From a virus, in the IMG/VR virus record IMGVR_UViG_3300032246_000349, positions 1-23,399 of that record: a DNA stretch of 23,399 nucleotides, one strand, 5' to 3'. A model generated the notes under the pieces. The model was not told the origin of the DNA. It was given only the letters and a program-made list of their open reading frames with translations, and made no database searches. Shown here in pieces: positions 10,142-23,399 of this stretch (position 1 is the stretch's first letter; each line of letters starts with the position of its first letter). The translations under genes and the position numbers were made by a program.

Positions 10142-10177
10142 TAGTAAAAAACTAGTAAAAAAGTAGTAAAAAAGTAG
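10142..10177. repeat. Three 11-bp tandem repeats with phased A-tracts
   Basis: TAGTAAAAAAC, TAGTAAAAAAG and TAGTAAAAAAG run without a gap, followed by a fourth TAG at 10175. The A6 runs recur every 11 bases, about one helical turn, a pattern known to bend DNA. It lies midway between the two divergent promoters. TTTTTA-G-TAAAAA at the left edge (10138-10150) is also a perfect palindrome. It may serve as a shared upstream element, an operator array, or part of an origin. Confidence 0.7.
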
Positions 10178-10206
10178 TTTACAAGCGTTTTTTAGTGTGT
10201 TAGTGT
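10178..10206 (+). promoter_or_regulatory. Probable extended -10 promoter for the rightward operon
   Basis: TTTACA (10178-10183), a 17-base spacer, then TAGTGT (10201-10206) preceded by TG-n (TGT). The -10 itself matches only three of six bases, but the extended TG and good -35 help, and the A-tracts lie just upstream. The predicted start near 10213 is two bases before the first ATG, which would give a leaderless message. CAAGC plus a T-run occurs at both promoters (10132 and 10182). Confidence 0.5.
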
Positions 10207-11925: not shown

Positions 11926-12104
11926 CAATAAATGATTTTATAAAAGAATGTAAGAAGTTGTTTGGAGATGATATACAATACAAAGCTGTATCTAAAGATG
12001 GACAAATTTTTAAAACGAAAGGTTGGAGAGATGATGTTAAGGTGGAATTTGACAAAAGACAATTTAGAGAATTTAATTCACAAATTAAAAGAACTAGATT
12101 TTAG
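11922..12104 (+). CDS. Small hypothetical protein coupled to the helicase
   Basis: 60 residues starting on an ATGA overlap with the helicase stop. It is basic and partly helical (INDFIKECKKLFGDDIQ), then strands (YKAVSKDGQIFKTKG). The last third overlaps the NinB-like gene in another frame. No family is recognised. The coupling argues for a real gene. Confidence 0.45.
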   Translation: MTINDFIKECKKLFGDDIQYKAVSKDGQIFKTKGWRDDVKVEFDKRQFREFNSQIKRTRF

Positions 12105-12390
12105 CAAACGTTGGAGAGTTACAATAACAGATGCAAAACTTAATCGCAGTTTAGAACAAAATGAAAGACTATGGGAACTATATACTAGTTTAAGTCAGCA
12201 TTTAGGCATTGAAAAAGACCGTATTCATGAACTCATGGGTTACAAGTTTTTGCGTTATCAAACTGAAATTGCAGGAATGTCAGTAGAACTTATTAAATCA
12301 ACAACAAAACTTACAACAAGTGAGATGACTGAATATCAACATCAAATTGAGATATGGGGTCAAACTATGGGGTGGGGTTGGGACTATTAA
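12034..12390 (+). CDS. NinB-like recombination protein
   Basis: About 118 residues from ATG 12034 (GGAG five bases upstream). TTG 12049, with AAGG upstream, is a possible alternative, and the frame is open further 5' to 11962. The motifs WRVTITDAKLNRSLEQNERL, LYTSLSQHLG, HELMGYKFL and STTKLTTSEMTEY match the lambda NinB (Orf) family, which binds single-stranded DNA and helps phage recombination. It lies between the helicase and the ATPase/GNAT gene. The exact start is uncertain. Confidence 0.75.
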   Translation: MLRWNLTKDNLENLIHKLKELDFSKRWRVTITDAKLNRSLEQNERLWELYTSLSQHLGIEKDRIHELMGYKFLRYQTEIAGMSVELIKSTTKLTTSEMTEYQHQIEIWGQTMGWGWDY

Positions 12391-12403
12391 CTAGGAGAGA
12401 GTT

Positions 12404-13558
12404 ATGAATGATTTATTTGCAATAGAAGAAAAAACAACAGTAATTACTAAAAAAACAAAGTTTGACAAAACAGAACGTAATAATTATATATGCAAAATGT
12501 ATGATATTAGTTTTGATGAAATTGTTGATGAGTTTATGGTTAACTTTGAAACAGACTTTGATTGGAATATTGGATTAATTGTAGGTCAAAGTGGAACAGG
12601 TAAAACAACAATAGCAAAAGAAAAGTTTAAAGATTTTTATTTGTTTAAAGAACATAAATGGGACGAAACAAAATCAATCGTAGATAATTTTGATGTAAGT
12701 TTACCAAGTGATAAAATTATTGAGTCACTTACAAAAGTAGGTTTTTCAAGTCCATTAAATTGGTTAAAACCATATCATTTATTATCTAATGGTCAAAAAA
12801 TGCGTGTAGATTTAGCACGATTACTATTAGAAAAAAATGAAACAGTTATATTTGATGAATTTACTAGCGTTGTAGATAGAGATGTAGCTAAAGTCACTTC
12901 ATTAGCTGTTAGTAACTTTATTAGAAAAAATAACTATAAGTTTATCGCAGTATCATGTCATAGTGATATAATTGAATGGTTACAACCAGATTGGATATTT
13001 GATACTAATGCTAAAAGTTTTAATAGGGGGTTACTTTGGCAAAGACCAAAACTTACATTCCAATTACGAACAGCATCAGTTGATGAATGGAAATCATTTG
13101 CTAACTATCACTATTTAACACATGAAATATTAAGAGGTAGTCATTGTTACGCTTTAGACTATAAAGGATTTCCTATAGCATTTGCAGCTGTAACTCATTT
13201 TCCACACCCTAAATGTTGTAACTTTAAAAAGATACACAGAATGGTTGTGCTACCAGACTTTCAAGGTATAGGTATTGGTAAACAATTTCTAAATGCTGTA
13301 TCTGAAATATACTATAAACAAAACTTTAGAGTATTGCTTACTACAGGTGCTTTAAGTTTTATTAATAGTTTAGATAAAGAAAAAGATTGGAAGATGACAA
13401 GAAAATTAAGTAAAGTAGGAGAAAGTAAAGGTATTCTTAAAGGTTCAACATCTAAAAATAGAGAAACAGCTAGTTTTGAATACAAAGATTGTCCTACAAG
13501 AACTATGAATCAACCTGTAGTAGAGATAAATAATATTCCTAATCATGATTTATTTTAA
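12404..13558 (+). CDS. ABC-type ATPase fused to a GNAT acyltransferase domain
   Basis: 384 residues, with TAGGAGAGAGTT before the ATG. Residues about 50-200 form one ABC nucleotide-binding domain: Walker A GQSGTGKT (61-68), signature LSNGQ (127-131), Walker B TVIFDE (147-152) and switch His186. Residues about 218-340 form a GNAT fold: the A motif is HRMVVLPDFQGIGIGKQ (278-294), where QGIGIG binds the CoA pyrophosphate. There are no membrane helices and no partner permease, so this is not a transporter. The next gene is a cytosine-C5 methyltransferase and a second DNA methyltransferase lies 2.5 kb on, so nucleic-acid modification (compare Mu Mom, also GNAT-fold) is one hypothesis. The acyl donor and target are unknown. 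Confidence 0.75.
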   Translation: MNDLFAIEEKTTVITKKTKFDKTERNNYICKMYDISFDEIVDEFMVNFETDFDWNIGLIVGQSGTGKTTIAKEKFKDFYLFKEHKWDETKSIVDNFDVSLPSDKIIESLTKVGFSSPLNWLKPYHLLSNGQKMRVDLARLLLEKNETVIFDEFTSVVDRDVAKVTSLAVSNFIRKNNYKFIAVSCHSDIIEWLQPDWIFDTNAKSFNRGLLWQRPKLTFQLRTASVDEWKSFANYHYLTHEILRGSHCYALDYKGFPIAFAAVTHFPHPKCCNFKKIHRMVVLPDFQGIGIGKQFLNAVSEIYYKQNFRVLLTTGALSFINSLDKEKDWKMTRKLSKVGESKGILKGSTSKNRETASFEYKDCPTRTMNQPVVEINNIPNHDLF

Positions 13559-13569
13559 GAAAATATAAT

Positions 13570-14406
13570 ATGAATGTATTATCATTATTTGACGGAATGT
13601 CATGTGGACAAATAGCATTAAAGCAATTAGGATTTAAAGTAGATAATTATTTTGCATCTGAAATAGATGAAAAAGCAATAAAAGTTGCTAAACATAATTT
13701 TCCAAATACAATACATATTGGTGATGTTACACAAATAAAAGGCAATGAATTACCAAAAATAGATTTACTTATTGGTGGTAGTCCATGTCAAGGTTTTAGT
13801 TTTGCTGGTAAAAAATTAAATTTTGATGATAAAAGAAGTGCATTATTTTTTGAGTTTGTTAGATTACTTAAAGAAACTAATCCAAAATATTTTTTACTTG
13901 AGAATGTAAAGATGTCTAAACAATGTCAAGATGTTATTAGTGAATATTTAGGAGTAAAACCAATAGAAATAAATTCATCTTTATTATCAGCTCAAAATAG
14001 ATTAAGATTATATTGGACTAATATACCAAATATTGAACAACCAAAAGATAAAAATATTTCATTTAAAGATATATTAAATCCAATATATGAATTTAAGCCA
14101 TTAACTAAATGGTTTTTTTCTACATGGGGAACAAAACAAAAAATTAATACATTAAGAACAATAGATGCAAATAAATCTTTTTGTATAACAACTAATAAAA
14201 GTCATTCAAAAAACTATTATTTAAATTCAGAAAAAACAATGGCAAGAATGTTAGAAAGAGATGAAGTTGAAAGATTACAAACTTTACCTGAAGGATATAC
14301 AAATATAGTTTCAAAAACTGAAGCTCATAAAATGATTGGAAATGGTTGGACTGTAGAAGTTATTAAACATATTTTTAGGAACATGAATGAATTATCGCAA
14401 TCCTAA
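13570..14406 (+). CDS. DNA (cytosine-5) methyltransferase
   Basis: 278 residues. Motif I LSLFDGMSCG binds SAM. Motif IV GGSPCQGFS carries the catalytic Cys73. Motif VI is ENV (111-113), motif VIII is QNRLR (142-146), and motifs IX-X are ERLQTLPEGY and MIGNGWTV at the end. The target-recognition part between VIII and IX is short. No restriction endonuclease is adjacent, so it is an orphan, probably protecting phage DNA from host restriction or marking it. It follows the ATPase/GNAT gene by 11 bases and overlaps the YbcO-like gene by 20 bases. Confidence 0.9.
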   Translation: MNVLSLFDGMSCGQIALKQLGFKVDNYFASEIDEKAIKVAKHNFPNTIHIGDVTQIKGNELPKIDLLIGGSPCQGFSFAGKKLNFDDKRSALFFEFVRLLKETNPKYFLLENVKMSKQCQDVISEYLGVKPIEINSSLLSAQNRLRLYWTNIPNIEQPKDKNISFKDILNPIYEFKPLTKWFFSTWGTKQKINTLRTIDANKSFCITTNKSHSKNYYLNSEKTMARMLERDEVERLQTLPEGYTNIVSKTEAHKMIGNGWTVEVIKHIFRNMNELSQS

Positions 14407-14677
14407 ACTACTTAAACTTGCAGACGGTGCACCATGTATGATGTGTTCTATGCAAGACGGTACAGTTGTCGCTGCACACTCTAATCAACTAAGAGATGGC
14501 AAAGGCACAGGTATTAAATCTCATGATTATCGCATAGCATTTTTATGTCATCAATGCCACCACATGATAGATAATGATAAAAGTTTAGATAAGCATGATA
14601 GAATGGCAGCATGGGAAGAAGCTCACCGTAAAACTATAGGTTGGTTATTTACTAACAATCATTTAGGAGTAAAATAA
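14387..14677 (+). CDS. YbcO-like (DUF1364-type) zinc nuclease
   Basis: 96 residues. RNPKLLKLADGAPCMMC gives C17 and C20, VVAAHSNQL gives H31, GTGIKSHDYRIAFLCHQCHH gives C54 and C57, and a helical end with H80 follows. This is the layout of the YbcO/DUF1364 family and related HNH-like zinc proteins found beside NinB-type genes in lambdoid phages. They are thought to be structure-specific nucleases. TAGGA lies six bases before ATG 14387, within the end of the methyltransferase gene. Confidence 0.7.
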   Translation: MNYRNPKLLKLADGAPCMMCSMQDGTVVAAHSNQLRDGKGTGIKSHDYRIAFLCHQCHHMIDNDKSLDKHDRMAAWEEAHRKTIGWLFTNNHLGVK

Positions 14678-14968
14678 ATGGGTAAAGGAAGTGCACCAAG
14701 ACCTTTTACAAACAGAGCAATCTTTGAAAATAATTGGGATAAAATATTTGATAAACAAAAAACAATAGACCCATTACCAAAAGAAACTCCACATAAAATA
14801 TTAAAACAATCACGCATAGATACTATTGGTCAAAACGGAAACAATGGCGACCATTATGAATATGAGTTGAATAAGTCCACAGGTGAGGTTGAAAAACGCT
14901 TTACTGATGGAACATCTAAACCTAATGGAGAACAATTTGGCAACGAGTCCGACTCAACTGAGTCTTAA
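14678..14968 (+). CDS. Conserved small phage protein (MGKGSxPRP type)
   Basis: 96 residues starting directly after the previous stop, with TTAGGAG upstream. The opening MGKGSAPRPFTNRAIFENNW followed by DKIFDK is a recurrent pattern in small phage proteins of unknown function found in replication regions. The C-terminal half is polar and low complexity (NGNNGDHYEY, then ESDSTES) and is probably disordered. It overlaps the next gene by 32 bases. Confidence 0.6.
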   Translation: MGKGSAPRPFTNRAIFENNWDKIFDKQKTIDPLPKETPHKILKQSRIDTIGQNGNNGDHYEYELNKSTGEVEKRFTDGTSKPNGEQFGNESDSTES

Positions 14969-15254
14969 AAAGTTACGAGATGAAGGATACACAGTTGCTA
15001 TAGTAGAACATTGGAACGCATTTGCTCGTATTAGACAAGACCTATTTGGTTTTATAGATTTACTAGCATTAAAAGATAAAGAAGTATTAGCAATTCAAAC
15101 AACCACAGCAACAAATATGTCAGCAAGAGCAAAAAAAATAGGTGACAATGAAAATGTAGATGCAGTTCGTAAAGCAGGTTGGACTATTCACATTCATGGT
15201 TGGCACCAAGATGATAAACGTAAATGGCATTGTAAAGTAAAAGATGTATCCTAA
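14937..15254 (+). CDS. Nuclease-fold protein with degenerate PD-(D/E)XK active site
   Basis: 105 residues from TTG 14937, which has GGAG six bases upstream; the frame extends further 5' but without a good site. SPTQLSLKKLRDEGYTVAIVE, then RQDLFGFIDLLAL (D41) and VLAIQTTT follow the core strand pattern of VRR-NUC-like nucleases. The usual E-x-K is here Q54-T-T56, so catalysis is doubtful. NMSARAKKI and a GWTIHIHGWH end are typical of the phage family. It may bind DNA or a nuclease partner without cutting. It overlaps the next gene by 11 bases. Confidence 0.6.
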   Translation: MATSPTQLSLKKLRDEGYTVAIVEHWNAFARIRQDLFGFIDLLALKDKEVLAIQTTTATNMSARAKKIGDNENVDAVRKAGWTIHIHGWHQDDKRKWHCKVKDVS

Positions 15255-15648
15255 ATTATCACTAGACCATTTATCATCAGATGACAAAAAGAAATTCTTG
15301 AAAGAAAGAATTATGGAAATTATTGGTGGTGACCAAAAAACATCTGTGCAATTAGCAGTAATTATTAGAGTGCATCAATACGAACTTAAATATCCACTTA
15401 TGGAGTTAGTAGCAGAAGGATTGTTGTATAATGACGTTAGAGGAAGTAAATTATATCTATACTATAAACCTAAACGGCATCCATTAGATGAAATCTTTAA
15501 TCACAATTTAAACATACCACAAAACAAAATATTAGAAACGCACAAGTATACAGAAAAAAATACTAAACATAATTTAAGACATAATGTAACTGTAGATTCA
15601 TTTGATGAAAGTGCGTTAGCAAGTGAAGGAGTGAAAATAAGAATATGA
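15244..15648 (+). CDS. Putative winged-helix DNA-binding protein
   Basis: 134 residues. Residues about 18-65 (FLKERIMEIIGGDQKTSVQL, then HQYELKYPLMELVAEGLL) read as a winged helix, with the wing at NDVRGSKLYLYY. The remaining 60 residues are polar and look disordered. It starts inside the previous gene and ends on an ATGA overlap with the next. A transcription or replication role is inferred from the fold pattern only. Confidence 0.5.
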   Translation: MYPKLSLDHLSSDDKKKFLKERIMEIIGGDQKTSVQLAVIIRVHQYELKYPLMELVAEGLLYNDVRGSKLYLYYKPKRHPLDEIFNHNLNIPQNKILETHKYTEKNTKHNLRHNVTVDSFDESALASEGVKIRI

Positions 15649-15764
15649 CACAAGAAGAAATTATTGCTATATACAGAAAAGTATTTCCAACAGGATATGA
15701 GTCTGTTACCATAGAACGTATTACTATATTTGCTAGATTGATAGAAGAAAAAGTTAAATCATGA
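15645..15764 (+). CDS. 39-residue helical protein
   Basis: A small ORF with ATGA overlaps at both ends and GGAG upstream (GAAGGAGTGAAA). The product is a charged helix-turn-helix-like peptide (QEEIIAIYRKVF, then TIERITIFARLIEEK). No family is recognised. The two exact overlaps with flanking genes support real translation. Confidence 0.5.
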   Translation: MTQEEIIAIYRKVFPTGYESVTIERITIFARLIEEKVKS

Positions 15765-16090
15765 TAACTATGGAACGTTTACTATCAATCCTAGATGATT
15801 GGAAAGTATACATGAAGTCTACTAATACTAGACTTGGTTATCCATCTAAAAGTCTTGGTATGTCATCTGGTGGTGAATCTACAAAAGATGAGTTTGAGCA
15901 CATGGTAAATGCTATGGATAAATCTAACGTCAGAACCATAGATGCAATTATACATAGTCTTGATAAAGGACAGCAACAAGCCATATATGCCAAATATCTA
16001 GGTACTAAACCTCCATTAGCTTACTCATGGCAATTAGACATGGCAATTGATAATCTATTAATTATTAGCTCTAGGAGAATTAATGCTTAA
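15761..16090 (+). CDS. Possible Q-like late-gene regulator
   Basis: 109 residues, in a pattern I associate with small phage antitermination or late-regulator proteins: ERLLSILDDWKVYMKS, then LGYPSKSLGMSSGG, a long helix, and DKGQQQAIYAKYLG with a terminal RRINA. The last part reads like a sigma-type or HTH DNA-binding region. It precedes the late promoter/terminator element at 16864-16977, separated only by the methyltransferase gene, as lambdoid Q genes lie just before pR'. Family membership is not certain; the function is inferred mainly from position. Confidence 0.4.
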   Translation: MITMERLLSILDDWKVYMKSTNTRLGYPSKSLGMSSGGESTKDEFEHMVNAMDKSNVRTIDAIIHSLDKGQQQAIYAKYLGTKPPLAYSWQLDMAIDNLLIISSRRINA

Positions 16091-16859
16091 ATTATTACAA
16101 GGTGATTGTTTAGAGTTAATGAAAGATTTAGATAATGATAGTATAGATTTAACTGTTACTAGCCCTCCTTATGATAATTTAAGAACATATAATGGATTTA
16201 CATTTGATTTTGAAAGAATAGCAAAAGAATTATTTAGGATTACAAAACAAGGTGGAGTTTTAGTTTGGGTAGTAGGTGATGCTACAATTAATGGAAGTGA
16301 AAGTGGAACATCATTTAAACAAGCATTATATTTTAAAGATATTGGATTTAATTTACATGACACAATGATTTATCAAAAGGGTTCTTTCCCTCCAACATTT
16401 CCAAAAACTAAAAGATATCAAAATGCTTTTGAATATATGTTTATATTAAGCAAAGGAACTCCAAAAACATTTAATGGCATACAAAGAGATAAAAGTCCAA
16501 ATTCAATTTATACAAGAAAAAGCAAATCATCATTTAGAAAAGCAGATGGTAGCTTTACATACAATGAACAAATAAATACTAGCAAAACTACAACCATTGA
16601 ATTAAATATATGGAAGATTGATTGTGGTTATATGAAATCCACAAAAGATAAAGAAGCATATAAACATTCAGCTATTTTTCCAGAAAAATTAGCTTATAAT
16701 CATATTATCAGTTGGAGCAATGAAAACGATACAGTTTTTGACCCATTTTTAGGAAGTGGAACAACTGGCAAAATAGCAAAACAATTAAATCGTAATTTTA
16801 TAGGCATGGAAATATCTAAAGAATATTTAGATATAGCAACTGCTAGAATAAACGCATAA
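16083..16859 (+). CDS. DNA methyltransferase, N4-cytosine or N6-adenine type
   Basis: 258 residues. Catalytic motif IV is TSPPY (26-30), typical of beta-class N4-cytosine and some N6-adenine enzymes. Motif I is DPFLGSGTTG (220-229), near the end, which is the beta-class order. LLQGDCLELMKDLDNDSIDL is the usual opening, and GMEISKEYLDIATARI the usual closing. No restriction partner is seen. It overlaps the previous gene by 8 bases. It would methylate phage DNA to avoid host nucleases or for regulation; the target base and site cannot be read from the sequence. Confidence 0.85.
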   Translation: MLKLLQGDCLELMKDLDNDSIDLTVTSPPYDNLRTYNGFTFDFERIAKELFRITKQGGVLVWVVGDATINGSESGTSFKQALYFKDIGFNLHDTMIYQKGSFPPTFPKTKRYQNAFEYMFILSKGTPKTFNGIQRDKSPNSIYTRKSKSSFRKADGSFTYNEQINTSKTTTIELNIWKIDCGYMKSTKDKEAYKHSAIFPEKLAYNHIISWSNENDTVFDPFLGSGTTGKIAKQLNRNFIGMEISKEYLDIATARINA

Positions 16860-16863
16860 TCAC

Positions 16864-16893
16864 TAGACTTAATATACTAATCTGTGATATAAT
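16864..16893 (+). promoter_or_regulatory. Extended -10 promoter, probable late promoter
   Basis: TAGACT (16864-16869), an 18-base spacer, then TATAAT (16888-16893) preceded by TG-A, which makes a full extended -10. Transcription would begin near 16900. It is the best + strand promoter in the window and lies just before the block that leads to the terminase, portal and scaffold genes. TACTAT at 16910-16915 in the early transcribed region is a weak -10-like element of the kind that pauses sigma70 at lambdoid late promoters. Confidence 0.65.
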
Positions 16894-16903
16894 ATAGCTT
16901 GTT

Positions 16904-16990
16904 ATGGCATACTATTGCCGAAAGAAACGTAATCCCTTCAAAACCCTGCCTATAACTCTCTCCATAGGTGGGGTTTTACTTTTATTATGA
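16904..16990 (+). CDS. 28-residue leader ORF spanning the terminator
   Basis: ATG 16904 lies about four bases after the predicted transcript start and has no ribosome binding site, so it would be leaderless. The peptide has a basic head (YYCRKKRNPF) and a hydrophobic tail (SIGGVLLLL), and it stops on an ATGA overlap with the zinc-ribbon gene. The ORF covers the whole terminator hairpin, so ribosomes on it would block the hairpin. It may be a leader peptide or chance. Confidence 0.3.
   Translation: MAYYCRKKRNPFKTLPITLSIGGVLLLL
16940..16977 (+). terminator. Strong intrinsic terminator between middle and late blocks
   Basis: AAAACCCTGCCTAT (16940-16953) pairs over 14 positions with ATAGGTGGGGTTTT (16964-16977) across a 10-base loop. 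Two pairs are G-U in the + RNA and would be mismatched in the - RNA, so it acts on rightward transcripts. A T-rich stretch follows. It ends transcripts from the methyltransferase side and also any RNA from the promoter at 16864, which would give a short RNA of about 75-80 bases unless antiterminated. Confidence 0.8.
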
Positions 16991-17151
16991 CATTATCTGT
17001 ATCAATCTGTGACTGCTGTGGTGAACCATTTGACCGCACAGAATATTCTCTTTGTAACGATTGCAGATACGACAAAACATACATTAAGCTAGATAAAGAA
17101 TTTACACAGGACAAAGAAGATGGCAGAATCATTCAAGATGAAAGTAAGTGA
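16987..17151 (+). CDS. Small zinc-ribbon protein
   Basis: 54 residues. SICDCCGEPF and SLCNDCRYD give two CxxC knuckles (C8/C10/C11 and C23/C26), a one-zinc ribbon. The rest is a charged tail (KLDKEFTQDKEDG). ATG 16987 follows directly on the terminator T-tract, so translation depends on readthrough. It overlaps the next gene by 32 bases. First genes after a late promoter are often small regulators, but the role here is unknown. Confidence 0.6.
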   Translation: MTLSVSICDCCGEPFDRTEYSLCNDCRYDKTYIKLDKEFTQDKEDGRIIQDESK

Positions 17152-17518
17152 CGATAAAGTAGCAAGTATATTTGCTCTTATGTTGCTTCACGAAGTAACT
17201 AATGCACATTTGCTTCATTGGGCAACAAATTCATTTTCAGAGCATGAAGCATTAGGTGAGTTCTATTCTAGTCTTGATGACAAAGCAGATGCTTTTGTAG
17301 AAGCATATATGGGTAAATATGGACAACTCAAAATTGAAAACTACCCAGAAGTATATAGCTTACCTAAATCAGATTGTGTAGCACATTTAGAAGAATTATC
17401 AGATAATGTTAAAAATGTAAGAGAAAAACTCCCACAAGATTCAGAGTTACAAAACTTGGTAGATGAAATAGCAGACTTAATTGATTCAACTCTTTACAAA
17501 CTACGTTTCTTAAAATAG
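17120..17518 (+). CDS. DUF5856 family, ferritin/Dps-like helical protein
   Basis: 132 residues, nearly all helix. LLHEVTNAHLLHWATNSFSE and HEALGEFYSSLDDKADAFVE carry His, Asp and Glu spaced like the metal-binding helices of Dps/ferritin proteins, as in the DUF5856 family known from T4-like and other phages. It could bind iron or DNA, or simply use the fold. The start may instead be ATG 17138, six codons on. It lies before the head genes; its function in phages is not settled to my knowledge. Confidence 0.65.
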   Translation: MAESFKMKVSDDKVASIFALMLLHEVTNAHLLHWATNSFSEHEALGEFYSSLDDKADAFVEAYMGKYGQLKIENYPEVYSLPKSDCVAHLEELSDNVKNVREKLPQDSELQNLVDEIADLIDSTLYKLRFLK

Positions 17519-17525
17519 GACAAAT

Positions 17526-17699
17526 ATGAAAAAATCAACAACAAAAACAGCTAAAATGGCTAAAGTAGGCAAAGTAATGAAAGAATACGGTACAGGTAAA
17601 TTGCACTCTGGTTCTAAAAAAGGTCCAGTAGTTAAATCACAAAAACAAGCTGTAGCTATTGCTTTATCAGAAGCAGGCATGAGCAAGAAGAAAAAATAA
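17526..17699 (+). CDS. DUF6496 family small basic protein
   Basis: 57 residues, highly basic. KVGKVMKEYGTGKLHSGSKK and QAVAIALSEAGMSKKKK are the DUF6496 signature, seen in many phages and bacteria. It probably binds nucleic acid, judging by charge. It has AGGA just upstream of the start and joins the next gene by TAATG. The function is unknown; virion packaging of a small DNA-binding protein is possible. Confidence 0.75.
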   Translation: MKKSTTKTAKMAKVGKVMKEYGTGKLHSGSKKGPVVKSQKQAVAIALSEAGMSKKKK

Positions 17700-18175
17700 T
17701 GGCTAAAACTTGCCCATTAGCAACACAAGATATTAAACTTAATCTTAAACATAGGGATTGGGCTTTTAAAAACGTAGGATACGGTCCAGTAAACCCAGAT
17801 ATAGAAGATAAAGTATTTTGGGCTAAACGTGCAGATGAATGGGCAACTACTCCAGAGATTGCTAAACAATCACGCTGTGGTAATTGTTCAGCATTTATAC
17901 AGACACCAGAAATGATGAATTGTATTTTAAACGGTGTAGCAGGTGATGAACCTGTAAATGAATCATACGCACCAGAAGTTATTGCTAGTGCAGAACTAGG
18001 ATATTGTGAACTATTTGACTTTAAGTGTGCAGCAGATAGAACTTGCTCTGCATGGTTAGTAGGTGGTCCGATTAAAAAATCACTCACTACAGCACAAAAG
18101 AAAATGCTTATGATGGCTAAATTTGAAAACGGTAATAAAGAAAACGACACTAATGAATATACAAATGGAGAATAA
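17699..18175 (+). CDS. Cysteine-rich conserved phage protein near terminase
   Basis: 158 residues. CPLATQDIKLNLKHRDWAFK at the start, FWAKRADEW, RCGNCSAF (C60, C63), C75, LGYCELFDFKCAADRTCSAW (C103, C110, C116) and GGPI. This set of conserved cysteines recurs in phage head-gene regions and may bind a metal or iron-sulfur cluster. No function is known to me. It is coupled to the preceding gene by TAATG and lies two bases before the next. Confidence 0.6.
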   Translation: MAKTCPLATQDIKLNLKHRDWAFKNVGYGPVNPDIEDKVFWAKRADEWATTPEIAKQSRCGNCSAFIQTPEMMNCILNGVAGDEPVNESYAPEVIASAELGYCELFDFKCAADRTCSAWLVGGPIKKSLTTAQKKMLMMAKFENGNKENDTNEYTNGE

Positions 18176-18177
18176 CA

Positions 18178-18495
18178 ATGAGTAGCATAAGATTTGATGA
18201 TAATGAAAATTTAGTAGACGCTTATGTACCAAGTACATCACAAGTATTTTCAGTAGGTAATACAACAGCAACTTCAACAGCATTTGGTGCAGGTACAACT
18301 TTAGTAAGAGTATCTTGTTCACTTGGTCATTGCCATGTTTCATTTGGTGCAACACCAACAGCATCAATTACAACAAGCATGATGATTCCTACAAACTCTG
18401 TAGGTATATTTAAAGTTAATGCAGGTGATAAGATTGCATACATTAAAGATGCAACTGTAGCAGCTTCAACACTTTGCGTAACGGAACTAGCATAA
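18178..18495 (+). CDS. Putative small virion (decoration-like) protein
   Basis: 105 residues, rich in Ser, Thr, Ala and beta-strand patterns (TTLVRVSCSLGHCHVSFG, then VGIFKVNAGDKIAYI). GGAG lies before ATG 18178. Such small beta-sandwich proteins beside the terminase genes are often capsid decoration or fibre-like proteins. No family is recognised with confidence. A cysteine pair (SCSLGHC) is of unknown significance. Confidence 0.5.
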   Translation: MSSIRFDDNENLVDAYVPSTSQVFSVGNTTATSTAFGAGTTLVRVSCSLGHCHVSFGATPTASITTSMMIPTNSVGIFKVNAGDKIAYIKDATVAASTLCVTELA

Positions 18496-18538
18496 CATTT
18501 AATAACAAAGGTAATGACCCAGCAATGGAGTTACAAAC

Positions 18539-18841
18539 ATGGATAAAGAAGAACAATTAGCAGAAGCTAGAAAGAAAGCAGCTGAAGTAAACAAAGGCAA
18601 CACTCATTCTAGTAAAATCAATAGGTTAGCATCAGAAACTCTGAAAAGAGTATTGGTGCAAGAAAAAGCTATTAGATTAAGACAAGTTACAGAAGCCCTA
18701 GTAGCAAAAGCTGAAGGTGGTGATGTATCTGCTATAAAAGAAATCTTTGACAGAATAGACGGTAAAGTAGTTCAAGAGAACAAAATAACAGGCGACTCTG
18801 ATGAACCTGTAACAATTAAGATTGTGACTGGCATTGAGTGA
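18539..18841 (+). CDS. Probable terminase small subunit
   Basis: 100 residues, helical and charged. NKGNTHSSKINRLASETLKR and AEGGDVSAIKEIFDRIDGKV followed by VTIKIVTG at the end are typical of the short protein before phage large terminases, which recognises the packaging site and stimulates the ATPase. It has GGAG 8 bases upstream of the ATG and overlaps the large subunit gene by 8 bases. The assignment rests on position and this pattern. Confidence 0.65.
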   Translation: MDKEEQLAEARKKAAEVNKGNTHSSKINRLASETLKRVLVQEKAIRLRQVTEALVAKAEGGDVSAIKEIFDRIDGKVVQENKITGDSDEPVTIKIVTGIE

Positions 18842-20096
18842 TGTTATAGATACTGGGTATAGACCTAGAAAGCCACAAAAACTTATTCATCAGATGGTGA
18901 AAGATAATAGGTTTACTGTTGTAGTGGCACATAGACGGATGGGTAAGACTGTATCAGCTATCAATCAACTTATACATTCATCACTATTATGTGATAAACC
19001 TAACCCACGATTTGCTTATATTGCTGCAACATATACTCAAGCCAAAAGAATTGCTTGGGACTACTTATTACAATATACAAGACCATTAGGTGCTATAGCT
19101 AATATTGCAGAGTTAAGAGTAGACTTTATGGGTAGACGTATATCTTTATACGGTGCTGATAACCCAGACTCATTACGAGGTATATATTTAGACGGTGTTG
19201 TGATTGACGAGATTGGGGATATTAACCCATCTATATGGAATGAAGTGGTAAGACCTGCTCTAGCTGACCGTAAAGGTTACGCTATGATGATTGGCACACC
19301 AAAAGGTAATAACCATTTTAAAGACTTACGAGATAGAGCTGAAAAAGCTAAAGATGATTGGGCTTTACTAGAGTTTAAAGCATCTGAAACTAATTTGATT
19401 GACCCACAAGAACTAGCATCTGCTAGAAATGAAATGGGTGATGATAAGTTTCAACAAGAGTTTGAGTGCTCCTTCAATGCAGCAGTAGAAGGTTCATACT
19501 ACGGTCAAATAATAAACGATTTAGAAGCAAAGAATCAGATTACTACAATCCCTAGAGAAACATTATCTAAAACATATTGTTCATGGGACTTGGGTATGTC
19601 TGACTCAACAGCTATTTGGGTAGCTCAAGTTGTAGGTAAAGAAATACGACTTGTAGACTTTTACGAGAATCATAGTCAAGGATTGGATACTTATGTTAGT
19701 TGGCTTCGTGATAATGAATGGAGTGATGCAGTTCAACTTCTGCCTCATGACGTGGTAGTTAGAGAGTTAGGCACAGGTAAATCAAGACAAGAAGTTCTTG
19801 AAGAAGCAGGACTAGAAATAACAATAGTAAAGAAATTACCAGTAGCAGATGGAATACAAGCTGTAAGACGATTATTACCTCGTTGCTGGTTTGACAAAAA
19901 TGTAAAGCAAGGATTAGATGCGTTAAGAAACTATAGACGCAACTATGATGAAAAGCGTAATGTGTTCTTTGACTCACCACTACATGATTGGTGCTCTCAT
20001 GCAGCAGACTCTTTTCGTTATCTTGCAGTAGGGCTAGATGAATCTGGCACAGACTGGGGACAACCCTTAAACGTAAATAAATCTTGGATAGTATAA
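18834..20096 (+). CDS. Terminase large subunit
   Basis: 420 residues from TTG 18834, chosen because no upstream ATG exists in frame and later ATGs would cut into PRKPQKLIHQ. The ATPase: Walker A AHRRMGKT (32-39), Walker B VVIDE (122-126, D125 and E126), coupling motif MMIGTPKG. The RNase H-like nuclease: SWDLGMSDST (D252) and HAADSFRYL near the end. It cuts and pumps concatemeric DNA through the portal. Its stop overlaps the portal start (TAATG). It is complete, at a normal length. Confidence 0.92.
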   Translation: MSDVIDTGYRPRKPQKLIHQMVKDNRFTVVVAHRRMGKTVSAINQLIHSSLLCDKPNPRFAYIAATYTQAKRIAWDYLLQYTRPLGAIANIAELRVDFMGRRISLYGADNPDSLRGIYLDGVVIDEIGDINPSIWNEVVRPALADRKGYAMMIGTPKGNNHFKDLRDRAEKAKDDWALLEFKASETNLIDPQELASARNEMGDDKFQQEFECSFNAAVEGSYYGQIINDLEAKNQITTIPRETLSKTYCSWDLGMSDSTAIWVAQVVGKEIRLVDFYENHSQGLDTYVSWLRDNEWSDAVQLLPHDVVVRELGTGKSRQEVLEEAGLEITIVKKLPVADGIQAVRRLLPRCWFDKNVKQGLDALRNYRRNYDEKRNVFFDSPLHDWCSHAADSFRYLAVGLDESGTDWGQPLNVNKSWIV

Positions 20097-22207
20097 TGGC
20101 ACAAAACTTCGCAACAAAATCTAAAAAGAACGAATATGTAATGGACGATAATAAACTCAAAGCCATTATTGATTCAGAGATTTGGTCATCACTTGGTTAC
20201 ATTCAATCAGAAACAACAGGTGAAAGACAAAAAGCATTAGAGTATTATCTACGCAGACCTTATGGCAATGAAGTAGAAGGTAAGTCACAGATTGTTACTG
20301 GTGAAGTAGCTGAAGCTGTAGACGGTGCATTACCACAACTCATTCGTATCTTTACATCACAAGACAATATTGTAGAGTTCTCACCAATGCACGAAGGTGA
20401 CCAAGAGTTAGCTGACGGTGCTACTACTTATGTCAATCATGTATTCTATAAAGACAATGATGGTTTTCATATTCTACATAATTGGTTTAAAGACGCATTA
20501 TTAGAAAAAGTAGGTGTTGTTAAAGTCTATTGGGACGATGAAACAAATATCACTAAAGAGTCATACAAAGGTTTAACAGATGACGAACTTGCACTTATCA
20601 TGCAAGACCAAGAAGTTGATTTAGTATCTCACGAAGAAGTCATCAACATTGAAAAGATTATTGACCCTATTACAGGTCTTGAAACAGAACATAATACTGT
20701 AACGCACAATGTTAAGGTTCGTAAAACAGTTCGTAATGGAACTGTGAGAGTAGAGAATGTTCCTCCAGAGGAGTTCTTAATCTCTAAACGTGCTAGAAAT
20801 ATCCAAGAGTCTGGTTTCTGTGCTCACCGTAAGATGATTACTCGTTCAGAGTTAATCGCTATGGGCTTTGACCCTAAAATCGTAGAAGGTTTAAATACTG
20901 CTGACGCATTAGAATATAGTCCAGAAAGAATTGCTCGTTATACTCGTGGTGAACAACCAACTGACATGATGTCACAAGACCACTCTATGCAATTAGTAGA
21001 GGTTTATGAGTGCTATATTAAGGTTGATTACAATGATGATGGTGTAGCTGAATTAAGACGCATATTCTACGCATCTAATGAGATTTTAAGTGATGAGGAT
21101 TGTGATTACATTCCTTTTCACTCTATTTGCCCATTACCAATACCACACAAATTCTTTGGTAACTCATTAGCAGATAGAACTATGGACTTGCAACTTATCA
21201 AGTCTACAGTAACAAGACAAATCCTAGACAATCTATACTTAACTAACAATGCTCGTGTATTGGCAGTAGAAGGTCAAGCTAACTATGATGACTTGCTAAC
21301 ATCTACAGCAGGTGGTGTAATTCGTGTTAAATCACCTACAGCAGTAACGCAATTACAAGTATCTAATAGTGCAGCAGGGTCATTTCCAATGCTAGAGTAT
21401 TTAGACTCTGTTCAAGCTAAACGAACTGGTGTTAGCGACATGAATCAAGGTTTAGACCCTAATGTGCTACAAAACGCTACAGCTACAGCAGTTGCTACTA
21501 TGTCTAATGCTGCTAACGGTAAGCTAGAACTTATTGCTCGTATCTTTGCAGAAACAGGTGTTAAATCACTATTTCAATCTATATTCAGATTGCTATGCAA
21601 ATATCAAGTTAATTCAAGAACACTAATGATTAACAAGAAACCAATGGTATTTAATCCTCGTGAGTGGTCAGAACAATATGGCATCAATATCAATGTAGGT
21701 TTAGGTACTGGCTCACGTCAAGAGCAATTAGCTACAATGCAAATGATTCTTGGTAAACAAGAACAAATCATTGGTCAATATGGTCTATCTAACCCACTAG
21801 TAAACTTAAATCAATACAGAGATACATTAGCTAGATTTATTCACATGGCTGGATTTAAAGATGCTTCTGGTTTCATTAATGACATTACTTCAGAACAAGC
21901 TCAACAAATTGCTCAAGCTCAAGCTCAAAATCAACCTGTAGACCCAAGTGTTCAAGCAGCACAAGAGTTTGCTAAAGTAGAAAGAGATAAAGCAGAGTTA
22001 AAAGCACAAACAGAAATGGCTAAACTTGAGCTACAAAAACAACAAATGGAATTAGACAATGCTCGTAAGCAATTAGAGCTACAAATGCAAGAGTTTAAGA
22101 TTCAAGCAGATGCTCAAAATGCAGCAGAGAAATCTAAATCTGATTCAGTTAAATCAATTATGTCATCATTAAAAGATATTAAGGATTTGCAAACTCCTAA
22201 CTTCTAA
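20096..22207 (+). CDS. Portal protein
   Basis: 703 residues from ATG 20096, which overlaps the terminase stop; an in-frame TTG at 20084 is less likely. RPYGNEVEGKSQIVTGEVAE is the usual portal opening, with later NVPPEEFLISKRAR, a long helix-rich stem, SNSAAGSFPMLEYLDSVQAK and TGVSDMNQGLDPNVLQNATA. The C-terminus is a long Gln/Lys coiled coil (about 625-680, LELQKQQMELDNARKQLEL) typical of the large podovirus-type portals with a barrel. It forms the dodecameric ring for DNA entry. The next start overlaps the stop (TAATG). Confidence 0.9.
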   Translation: MAQNFATKSKKNEYVMDDNKLKAIIDSEIWSSLGYIQSETTGERQKALEYYLRRPYGNEVEGKSQIVTGEVAEAVDGALPQLIRIFTSQDNIVEFSPMHEGDQELADGATTYVNHVFYKDNDGFHILHNWFKDALLEKVGVVKVYWDDETNITKESYKGLTDDELALIMQDQEVDLVSHEEVINIEKIIDPITGLETEHNTVTHNVKVRKTVRNGTVRVENVPPEEFLISKRARNIQESGFCAHRKMITRSELIAMGFDPKIVEGLNTADALEYSPERIARYTRGEQPTDMMSQDHSMQLVEVYECYIKVDYNDDGVAELRRIFYASNEILSDEDCDYIPFHSICPLPIPHKFFGNSLADRTMDLQLIKSTVTRQILDNLYLTNNARVLAVEGQANYDDLLTSTAGGVIRVKSPTAVTQLQVSNSAAGSFPMLEYLDSVQAKRTGVSDMNQGLDPNVLQNATATAVATMSNAANGKLELIARIFAETGVKSLFQSIFRLLCKYQVNSRTLMINKKPMVFNPREWSEQYGININVGLGTGSRQEQLATMQMILGKQEQIIGQYGLSNPLVNLNQYRDTLARFIHMAGFKDASGFINDITSEQAQQIAQAQAQNQPVDPSVQAAQEFAKVERDKAELKAQTEMAKLELQKQQMELDNARKQLELQMQEFKIQADAQNAAEKSKSDSVKSIMSSLKDIKDLQTPNF

Positions 22208-22434
22208 TGAACACACAAAATATTAAAAACATCTTAAATGATGATGATTTTAAGTCAGTCTTACAAGAATTGATTGATGGTCATATACAAAGAATCATAA
22301 ACTCTAATGACTCTGATACAGAAATTAGAGAGCAGTCCTATCATAGAATAGCTGCTATAAAAGAATTAATCGGCAGTCTTGAAGCTGTTGCAGCAGGTCA
22401 AGCAATAGCAGAGAACCGATTTAAGATATTGTAG
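22207..22434 (+). CDS. Small helical protein between portal and scaffold
   Basis: 75 residues, helical and charged (FKSVLQELIDGHIQRIINS, then IREQSYHRIAAIKELIGSL). Small proteins in this position are common in podovirus head modules, with unknown function; some act in assembly. The start is fused to the portal stop (TAATG). The stop lies within a short palindrome at 22430-22445. Confidence 0.55.
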   Translation: MNTQNIKNILNDDDFKSVLQELIDGHIQRIINSNDSDTEIREQSYHRIAAIKELIGSLEAVAAGQAIAENRFKIL

Positions 22435-22445
22435 AAAATTCTACA
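22430..22445. other. Short perfect palindrome after the small head gene
   Basis: TGTAGAA and TTCTACA are perfect 7-base arms with a two-base centre, and they include the TAG stop of the preceding gene. A second small hairpin (ACCTC/GAGGT, 22454-22468) follows before the scaffold ribosome binding site. These may tune mRNA processing between portal and scaffold, which are needed in different amounts, or be chance. Confidence 0.3.
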
Positions 22446-22484
22446 TTTGGTACACCTCCCATAGAGGTAATATAGGAAAATTAA

Positions 22485-23399
22485 ATGAGTGAAAACACCA
22501 TGACTCCAGAAGATTCTGGAAGTGGCACGCTTACTGTAAGTCAAGCAGCCAATGCGTTTGAAGGTTTAATGGACACCCCAGCTAACTCTAGCGAGCAACT
22601 AGCAGGTGAACAGGAAGCACAAGAACAGGCACAGGAACAAGAAGCAGAGCCACAACAAGAGCAAGAAGAAGTAGTTGAGGATGATGCAGAAGTACAAGAA
22701 AATGACAGTCAAGAAGATGAGCCTTCTTATGTGGTGAAAGCCGCAGGTGAAGAAAAAGAAGTACCTCTATCTGAATTGATTAAAGGTTATCAACTTGGTG
22801 CTGACTATACGAAAAAAACTACCGAAGTAGCTGAACAACGTAAGCTAGTGGAAGCTGAACGTGTTGCTATTGAGGAAGCAAAGTATGCTCGTGATAATTA
22901 TGCTCAACGTCTGCAAGCAATAGATAACTTTCTAACTTCGCAGATGCCACAAGAGGACTTAAATTCTCTTAAAGAAAACGACCCTATAGGTTATGCAGTT
23001 AAAATTGCTGAACTTTCTGAAAAGAAAGAACAACTCGCAGCTATAAGAGCCGAACAAACCAGAATTGCCCAAGAGCAACAATCTGACTATGCTCGTGCCA
23101 TGTCTGAAAGAGTTGCACAGGAAGCACAAAAACTAGCACAAGTCCTACCAGAGTTTTCAGACCCAGCCAAAGGCGATAACTTCCGTAAAGAAATTCGTTC
23201 TTATGGCAAGACGTTAGGATTTACAGACGAAGAACTTTCATCTGTGATTGACTCTCGTCATGTTGTGACATTACATAAGGCAATGATGTATGACAAACTT
23301 CAAAAATCAAAGCCAGCTATCACCAAAAAAGTAAATGAAGCTCCTAGAATGTTAAGAGCAGGTACTTCTGGTGCTAATAAGCAAAGTGATGCACAAAAA
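22485..23399 (+). CDS. Scaffolding protein (3' end outside window)
   Basis: 305 residues visible; the frame is open to the last base, so it is truncated by the window. The ATG has AGGAAAA eight bases upstream. The first 80 residues are acidic and Gln/Glu-rich (QEQAQEQEAEPQQEQEE), a disordered stretch. Then come VVKAAGEEKEVPLSELIKGY and QLGADYTKKTTEVAEQRKLV, a well-known scaffold motif, a long coiled coil, and a basic C-terminal part that would contact the coat protein. It guides capsid assembly and leaves before DNA fills the head. The coat gene should follow outside the window. Confidence 0.85.
   Translation, partial: MSENTMTPEDSGSGTLTVSQAANAFEGLMDTPANSSEQLAGEQEAQEQAQEQEAEPQQEQEEVVEDDAEVQENDSQEDEPSYVVKAAGEEKEVPLSELIKGYQLGADYTKKTTEVAEQRKLVEAERVAIEEAKYARDNYAQRLQAIDNFLTSQMPQEDLNSLKENDPIGYAVKIAELSEKKEQLAAIRAEQTRIAQEQQSDYARAMSERVAQEAQKLAQVLPEFSDPAKGDNFRKEIRSYGKTLGFTDEELSSVIDSRHVVTLHKAMMYDKLQKSKPAITKKVNEAPRMLRAGTSGANKQSDAQK

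Follow-up and report, generated by a model that had tools for sequence, protein, structure and literature searches.

A probable phage 21-like late-gene switch in an uncultured virus and its metagenomic relatives

The stretch of DNA analyzed here (the window) comprises 23,399 nucleotides, positions 1 to 23,399 of the IMG/VR virus record IMGVR_UViG_3300032246_000349, and its genome order is replication, NinB, Q-like gene, promoter, terminase. From the Q-like gene onward the following features are found, all on the plus strand.

15761..16090, +: predicted Q-like antiterminator gene, 109 aa (phrog_248, sub-threshold PF06530 matches in relatives, fold)
16083..16859, +: DNA N4/N6 methylase gene, 258 aa (PF01555, E 2.9e-44)
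16864..16893, +: predicted late promoter, pR'-like, TAGACT-18-TATAAT with a TG extended -10
16900..16985, +: predicted short leader RNA, ~79-86 nt (start placed by spacing, end by the terminator)
16904..16990, +: leaderless 28-aa ORF over the hairpin, probably non-functional
16905..16919, +: conserved start-proximal block TGGCATACTATTGCC (GGN8YG in relatives)
16940..16985, +: intrinsic terminator, tR'-like (14-bp stem 16940-16953/16964-16977, 10-nt loop, U-rich tail)
16954..16963, +: terminator loop AACUCUCUCC; its UCUCC patch is conserved and complements phage ribosome-binding sites
16987..22434, +: late-gene block past the terminator (Zn-ribbon-like small ORF, DUF5856, DUF6496, unknowns, terminase, portal)
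18834-20096, +: terminase large subunit
20084-22207, +: SU10-type portal

A first-pass annotation of this DNA had postulated an extended -10 promoter starting RNA near 16900, a strong intrinsic terminator immediately after it, and late genes beyond the pair. The promoter can be read directly in the sequence: the -35 TAGACT occupies 16864-16869, and after an 18 nt spacer, with TG at 16885-16886, comes the -10 TATAAT at 16888-16893, a spacing that would put +1 at 16900 or 16901. The terminator has a 5' arm AAAACCCTGCCTAT (16940-16953), a loop AACTCTCTCC (16954-16963) and a 3' arm ATAGGTGGGGTTTT (16964-16977), forming a stem of 14 bp that includes two G-U pairs, with ACTTTTATT directly 3'. RNA 16899-16985 folds at -24.6 kcal/mol (z -4.1), and none of 200 shuffles is as good. 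An Rfam search of the window returned no family match, and consensus RNA folding of the mixed leaders mis-aligned the terminators. The leader lies just ahead of the terminase and portal genes, which are indeed found downstream, within 16987..22434. It would be much shorter than the leader of lambda, which is about 190 nt.

The hairpin is covered by a leaderless ORF (ATG 16904, 28 codons, TGA 16988-16990), which the first-pass annotation had noted as a possible basis for ribosome-based attenuation, with its translation deciding termination. The frame is open, its ATG lies at +5, it spans the hairpin and it ends on the start codon of the next gene. Against this, the ATG is replaced by AGG in a close relative (L007), an ATG is missing from +1..+12 in 47 of the 72 unique leaders, and the length and frame of the ORF vary, from 2 to 43 aa. 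Because the ORF is not conserved, attenuation of this kind is hardly to be credited.

Promoter-like matches in 12000-23399 are not commoner than in shuffled sequences (41 versus 51), and the window has two TGnTATAAT sites where 3.3 would be expected. As its frequency is not above chance, the promoter motif alone is no evidence, and the case rests on comparison with relatives. Related viral contigs were fetched with the 109-aa product of 15761-16090, giving 163 loci (2.13 Mb counting both strands). These contain 208 TGnTATAAT sites. A terminator follows within 140 nt at 132 of them, every one downstream of the Q-like gene (at most 150 bp away in 121 cases and at most 1.5 kb in the other 11), and at none of the 66 sites elsewhere; the counts are not independent, as many of the loci are related by shared ancestry. 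The single motifs are not rarer than chance, but the combination of promoter and terminator is far beyond it.

The orthologous promoter is found in 140 loci, representing 72 unique sequences in four clades, and the order of gene, promoter, terminator and late genes is kept across these clades. The stop codon of the Q-like gene is directly followed by the promoter in most relatives; in one clade the -35 is TTGACA and overlaps that stop codon. EBPR podovirus 1, with a protein of 30% identity, has in order the stop codon, TTGACA-17-CAGAAT, GGGGCAGAGGTGCGCCC, a strong terminator and TerS. It could be argued that the hairpin serves only to terminate the early operon and that the promoter match is an accident of AT-rich DNA, as might be expected from promoter-like motifs no commoner than in shuffles. 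However, 72 unique relatives have perfect promoters in the corresponding position, conserved despite variable flanks, and a terminator-followed promoter is associated exclusively with the Q-like gene. We therefore regard a chance match as very improbable.

A motif-only scan of viral contigs (TATAAT, GG-N8-YG-YCC and CTCTCC) returned 80 sites, 63 of them with a terminator, and a Q-like gene lies upstream of 61 of these 63; because the motif had been derived from this very family, the scan replicates the association on new contigs and is not a blind test. The remaining two terminator-bearing sites are on contigs cut within 90 bp, and the 17 sites with neither terminator nor Q-like gene are chance matches. 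In about 19 loci with a Q-like gene, no such promoter was found within 1.6 kb downstream (marine clades L031-L045, L059 and L073; Venkman; L159). In Methylophilales phage Venkman (L160/L176) the patterns used found no promoter-block-terminator module. The Venkman late genes are on the other strand from the Q-like gene, so the target site there must be elsewhere or different. Bacterial genomes gave one remote match only (L159, 36%), so that neither a prophage context nor a host can be assigned.

The methylase gene lies between the Q-like gene and the promoter in the window, and its start overlaps the end of the Q-like gene. Methylases in about ten related loci (L018, L019, L023, L087, L100, L109, L122, L124, L127 and L128) begin at the same point with respect to the Q-like gene. 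They are 29-33% identical to the window methylase, apart from one short partial match at 70%. Methylases entering at the same point and mostly this divergent suggest what looks like an insertion slot, with the promoter still tied to the Q-like gene.

Sequence similarity of the 109-aa protein to known families is low. It matches phrog_248 ("transcriptional activator") at E 3.8e-4 and no Pfam family, PF06530 included. Three of 29 family members match PF06530, all below threshold (best E 6e-4). L012 scores 17.3 bits and the Venkman protein 16.4, against a cut-off of 26 bits. Neither this gathering score nor the NCBIfam cut-offs are reached by the family, and we therefore do not claim formal PF06530 membership. 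Alignment with hhalign to the QuuD-type PF06530 alignment gave P 0.0016 and a probability of 16%, with the N-terminal tryptophan helix in register; the same comparison with HK629/ST64T-type Q found no similarity, and a PDB sequence search with the family profile found repeat-protein artefacts only. Relatives detected by tblastn are annotated "phage antitermination protein Q" (60%) and "antitermination-like protein" (47%), and the two public relatives bearing antitermination annotation are an uncultured podovirus and phage Venkman.

Structure prediction against Q families, which the first-pass annotation had named as a check, was made with AlphaFold2 models of two family members (pLDDT 81), and both rank phage-21 Q (21Q) first when the solved structures listed by Foldseek are re-ranked with VIA-align. 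For the first model the best match is 6jny (Z 6.0, rmsd 3.6, 88 aligned residues) and the first rows are all 21Q entries (6/6, Z 5.3-6.0); for the second it is 6p18 (Z 6.8, rmsd 4.4, 90 aligned), with three 21Q entries at Z 6.1-6.8 in the first rows. In both cases these come ahead of sigma region 4. Foldseek alone places 21Q fourth (E 2.3), and VIA-align scores of Z 6-7 are middling. A following position for sigma region 4 is expected, since 21Q itself has been described as resembling sigma region 4 together with an anti-sigma helix (PMC6606751). The predicted models fit the 21Q-type fold, which has an N-terminal helix, a ring loop and a sigma-region-4-like helix-turn-helix (HTH). The most conserved stretch, LGYPSKSLGMSSGGES, is a low-confidence unstructured loop between helix 1 and the next helix, and in the models it would correspond to the part of 21Q from which the ring in the RNA exit channel is built.

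These matches also bear on whether the protein might instead be a sigma-region-4-like activator of the promoter (RinA/ArpU-like) and not an antiterminator. Sub-threshold matches to Sigma70_r4_2 (sigma-70 region 4) in 12 of 29 members, along with the phrog_248 label, are consistent with that role. However, a consensus extended -10 is present (and in other clades a TTGACA as well), so no activator is needed; a terminator nearly always follows the promoter; and the models match 21Q more closely than sigma region 4, with more residues aligned. We consider an activator decidedly unlikely. A Q-like identity for the 109-aa protein is supported by its predicted fold, the sub-threshold PF06530 matches, the annotated relatives and the gene order. 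The small gene suspected of being Q-like in the first-pass annotation has thus kept that description, though not its supposed position immediately upstream, as the methylase gene intervenes.

Just past the predicted start lies the conserved block TGGCATACTATTGCC. It begins with an extended -10-like TGG-CATACT (16905-16913, +6..+14), in which the G-11G-10 pair falls at 16906-16907, followed by Y-1 at T16916 and G+1 at G16917. GG-N8-[CT]G is present in 64 of the 72 unique relatives (89%) compared with 8.5% of shuffles, and the sequence between the -10 and this block is variable. The elemental pause consensus is G-10Y-1G+1 (PMC7876045), and the GGN8YG block fits it as a candidate pause signal; in the window Y-1 would be T16916, corresponding to an RNA of 16-17 nt. 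The block also holds a GGCA/TGCC dyad, in which the third pair alone shows changes on both sides (A-U versus G-C), in two clades. As a family-wide pause element we rejected the strict -10-like hexamer, which is CATACT at 16908-16913 in the window and is present in only about a third of sequences (36%, versus 20% in shuffles). From the start of this hexamer to the consensus pause site is 9 nt here, shorter than at lambda pR', and either element may set the pause.

A phage-21-type Q site, a 6-bp direct repeat between -35 and -10, was not found family-wide: repeats at 8-bp spacing occur in 3 of 14 representatives (1.1 expected), and TGAGCA is not in the window spacer. The sequence of the Q binding element (QBE) differs between Q families, so another Q site is possible.

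Taken together, the locus is in all likelihood a late-gene switch of a lambdoid-type phage that works like Q/pR'/tR' of phage 21. The lambdoid-style reading of the first-pass annotation is thus strengthened by the linkage (132/132 versus 0/66), by the 21Q-like fold and by a layout kept in relatives. In the mechanism we propose, host RNA polymerase would start constitutively at the extended -10 promoter near 16900 and pause after about 14-17 nt on the conserved start-proximal element. Without the phage protein, transcription would stop at the terminator (16940-16985), leaving the RNA of ~79-86 nt. Early transcription would yield the 109-aa Q-like protein (15761-16090), which may bind the promoter DNA together with the paused polymerase and narrow the RNA exit channel. 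The modified polymerase would then ignore this terminator and later ones, and terminase, portal and the other late genes would be expressed.

The closest parallel, Q/pR'21/tR'21 of phage 21, shares the order Q, promoter, short leader, terminator and late genes, a small alpha-helical protein of similar predicted fold with a sigma-region-4-like HTH, and a pause at about the distance predicted here (in the 21Q complex, arrest is at +14; PMC6606751). It differs in that the protein here has 109 aa and sub-threshold sequence similarity, the promoter has a strong extended -10 and no TGAGCA direct repeat between -35 and -10, and there is a conserved GG-N8-YG dyad along with the UCUCC patch. A known Q21-type phage (L175) has the TGAGCA repeat and the same gene-promoter-terminator layout. 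The lambda Q/pR'/tR' system shares the logic and gene order, and its pause at 16-17 nt (PMC7876045) compares with a predicted pause RNA of about 14-17 nt here; the lambda Q fold is unrelated to the 21Q type outside the HTH (PMC6606751). AlpA of Pseudomonas aeruginosa (AlpA/ABE/tB), which has no sequence similarity to 21Q, forms a similar ring in the RNA exit channel, and likewise uses a promoter-proximal pause, a binding element and a downstream terminator (PMC9371919). Unlike the present system, AlpA governs a chromosomal cell-lysis programme, and its ABE, GGGACG at about -25, is not seen in the window.

The terminated leader may have a role of its own. UCUCC is present in 68 of the 72 unique leaders (94%) versus 9.6% in shuffles; one clade has it in the terminator loop, other clades upstream of the terminator. 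In the window, the loop AACUCUCUCC is exactly complementary to the ribosome-binding site of gene 12404 (12394-12404), and when extended by one base it complements GGAGAGAGUUA at that gene's start over 11 nt, the best such match in the window. The complementarity of the patch to phage ribosome-binding sites is more frequent and longer than in flank-shuffled controls: sites with at least 7 nt number 22, versus 9.2 in the controls, and none of 100 controls reaches 22. There is a precedent in StxS, the terminated pR' leader from the Stx-phage pR'-tR' region, reported as a small RNA (sRNA) acting on a ribosome-binding site (PMC7873438); the leader here, in contrast, is a candidate sRNA proposed from sequence complementarity.

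The promoter-terminator pair could accordingly be mainly a small-RNA gene, its ~80-nt RNA pairing the UCUCC patch with ribosome-binding sites of phage mRNAs in trans, a role that may coexist with the Q switch. However, many of the targets are homologous genes sharing one ribosome-binding site, any CU-rich patch matches Shine-Dalgarno sequences, and an sRNA alone leaves the strict coupling to the Q-like gene unexplained. We think it fairly unlikely that this is the main function. That the leader is both the substrate of the Q switch and a conserved trans-acting sRNA, with the exposed UCUCC pairing with ribosome-binding sites of early genes (NinB, the Sak-type annealing protein and the ABC-ATPase/acetyltransferase at 12404), is a quite doubtful proposition; if true, one promoter-terminator pair would time late transcription and damp early translation.

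The switch is largely of the known phage-21/lambda type, in a little-studied phage group. Most work on the Q/pR'/tR' late switch has been done in enterobacterial phages, and this locus would extend its range to widespread uncultured phages of metagenomes. A compact 109-aa Q-like protein with a recognisable promoter module would make late operons findable in metagenomes by DNA motif alone, and the conserved pause block and UCUCC patch offer concrete, testable features.

Two further observations concern the early region. The gene at 12404-13558 encodes an ABC-type ATPase fused with a GNAT acetyltransferase (PF00005 and PF00583; phrog_11143, unknown function). In the divergent region between the left and right early operons, 10142-10185 holds three overlapping copies of an 11-bp-spaced repeat, TAGTAAAAAAG, possibly an operator or origin.
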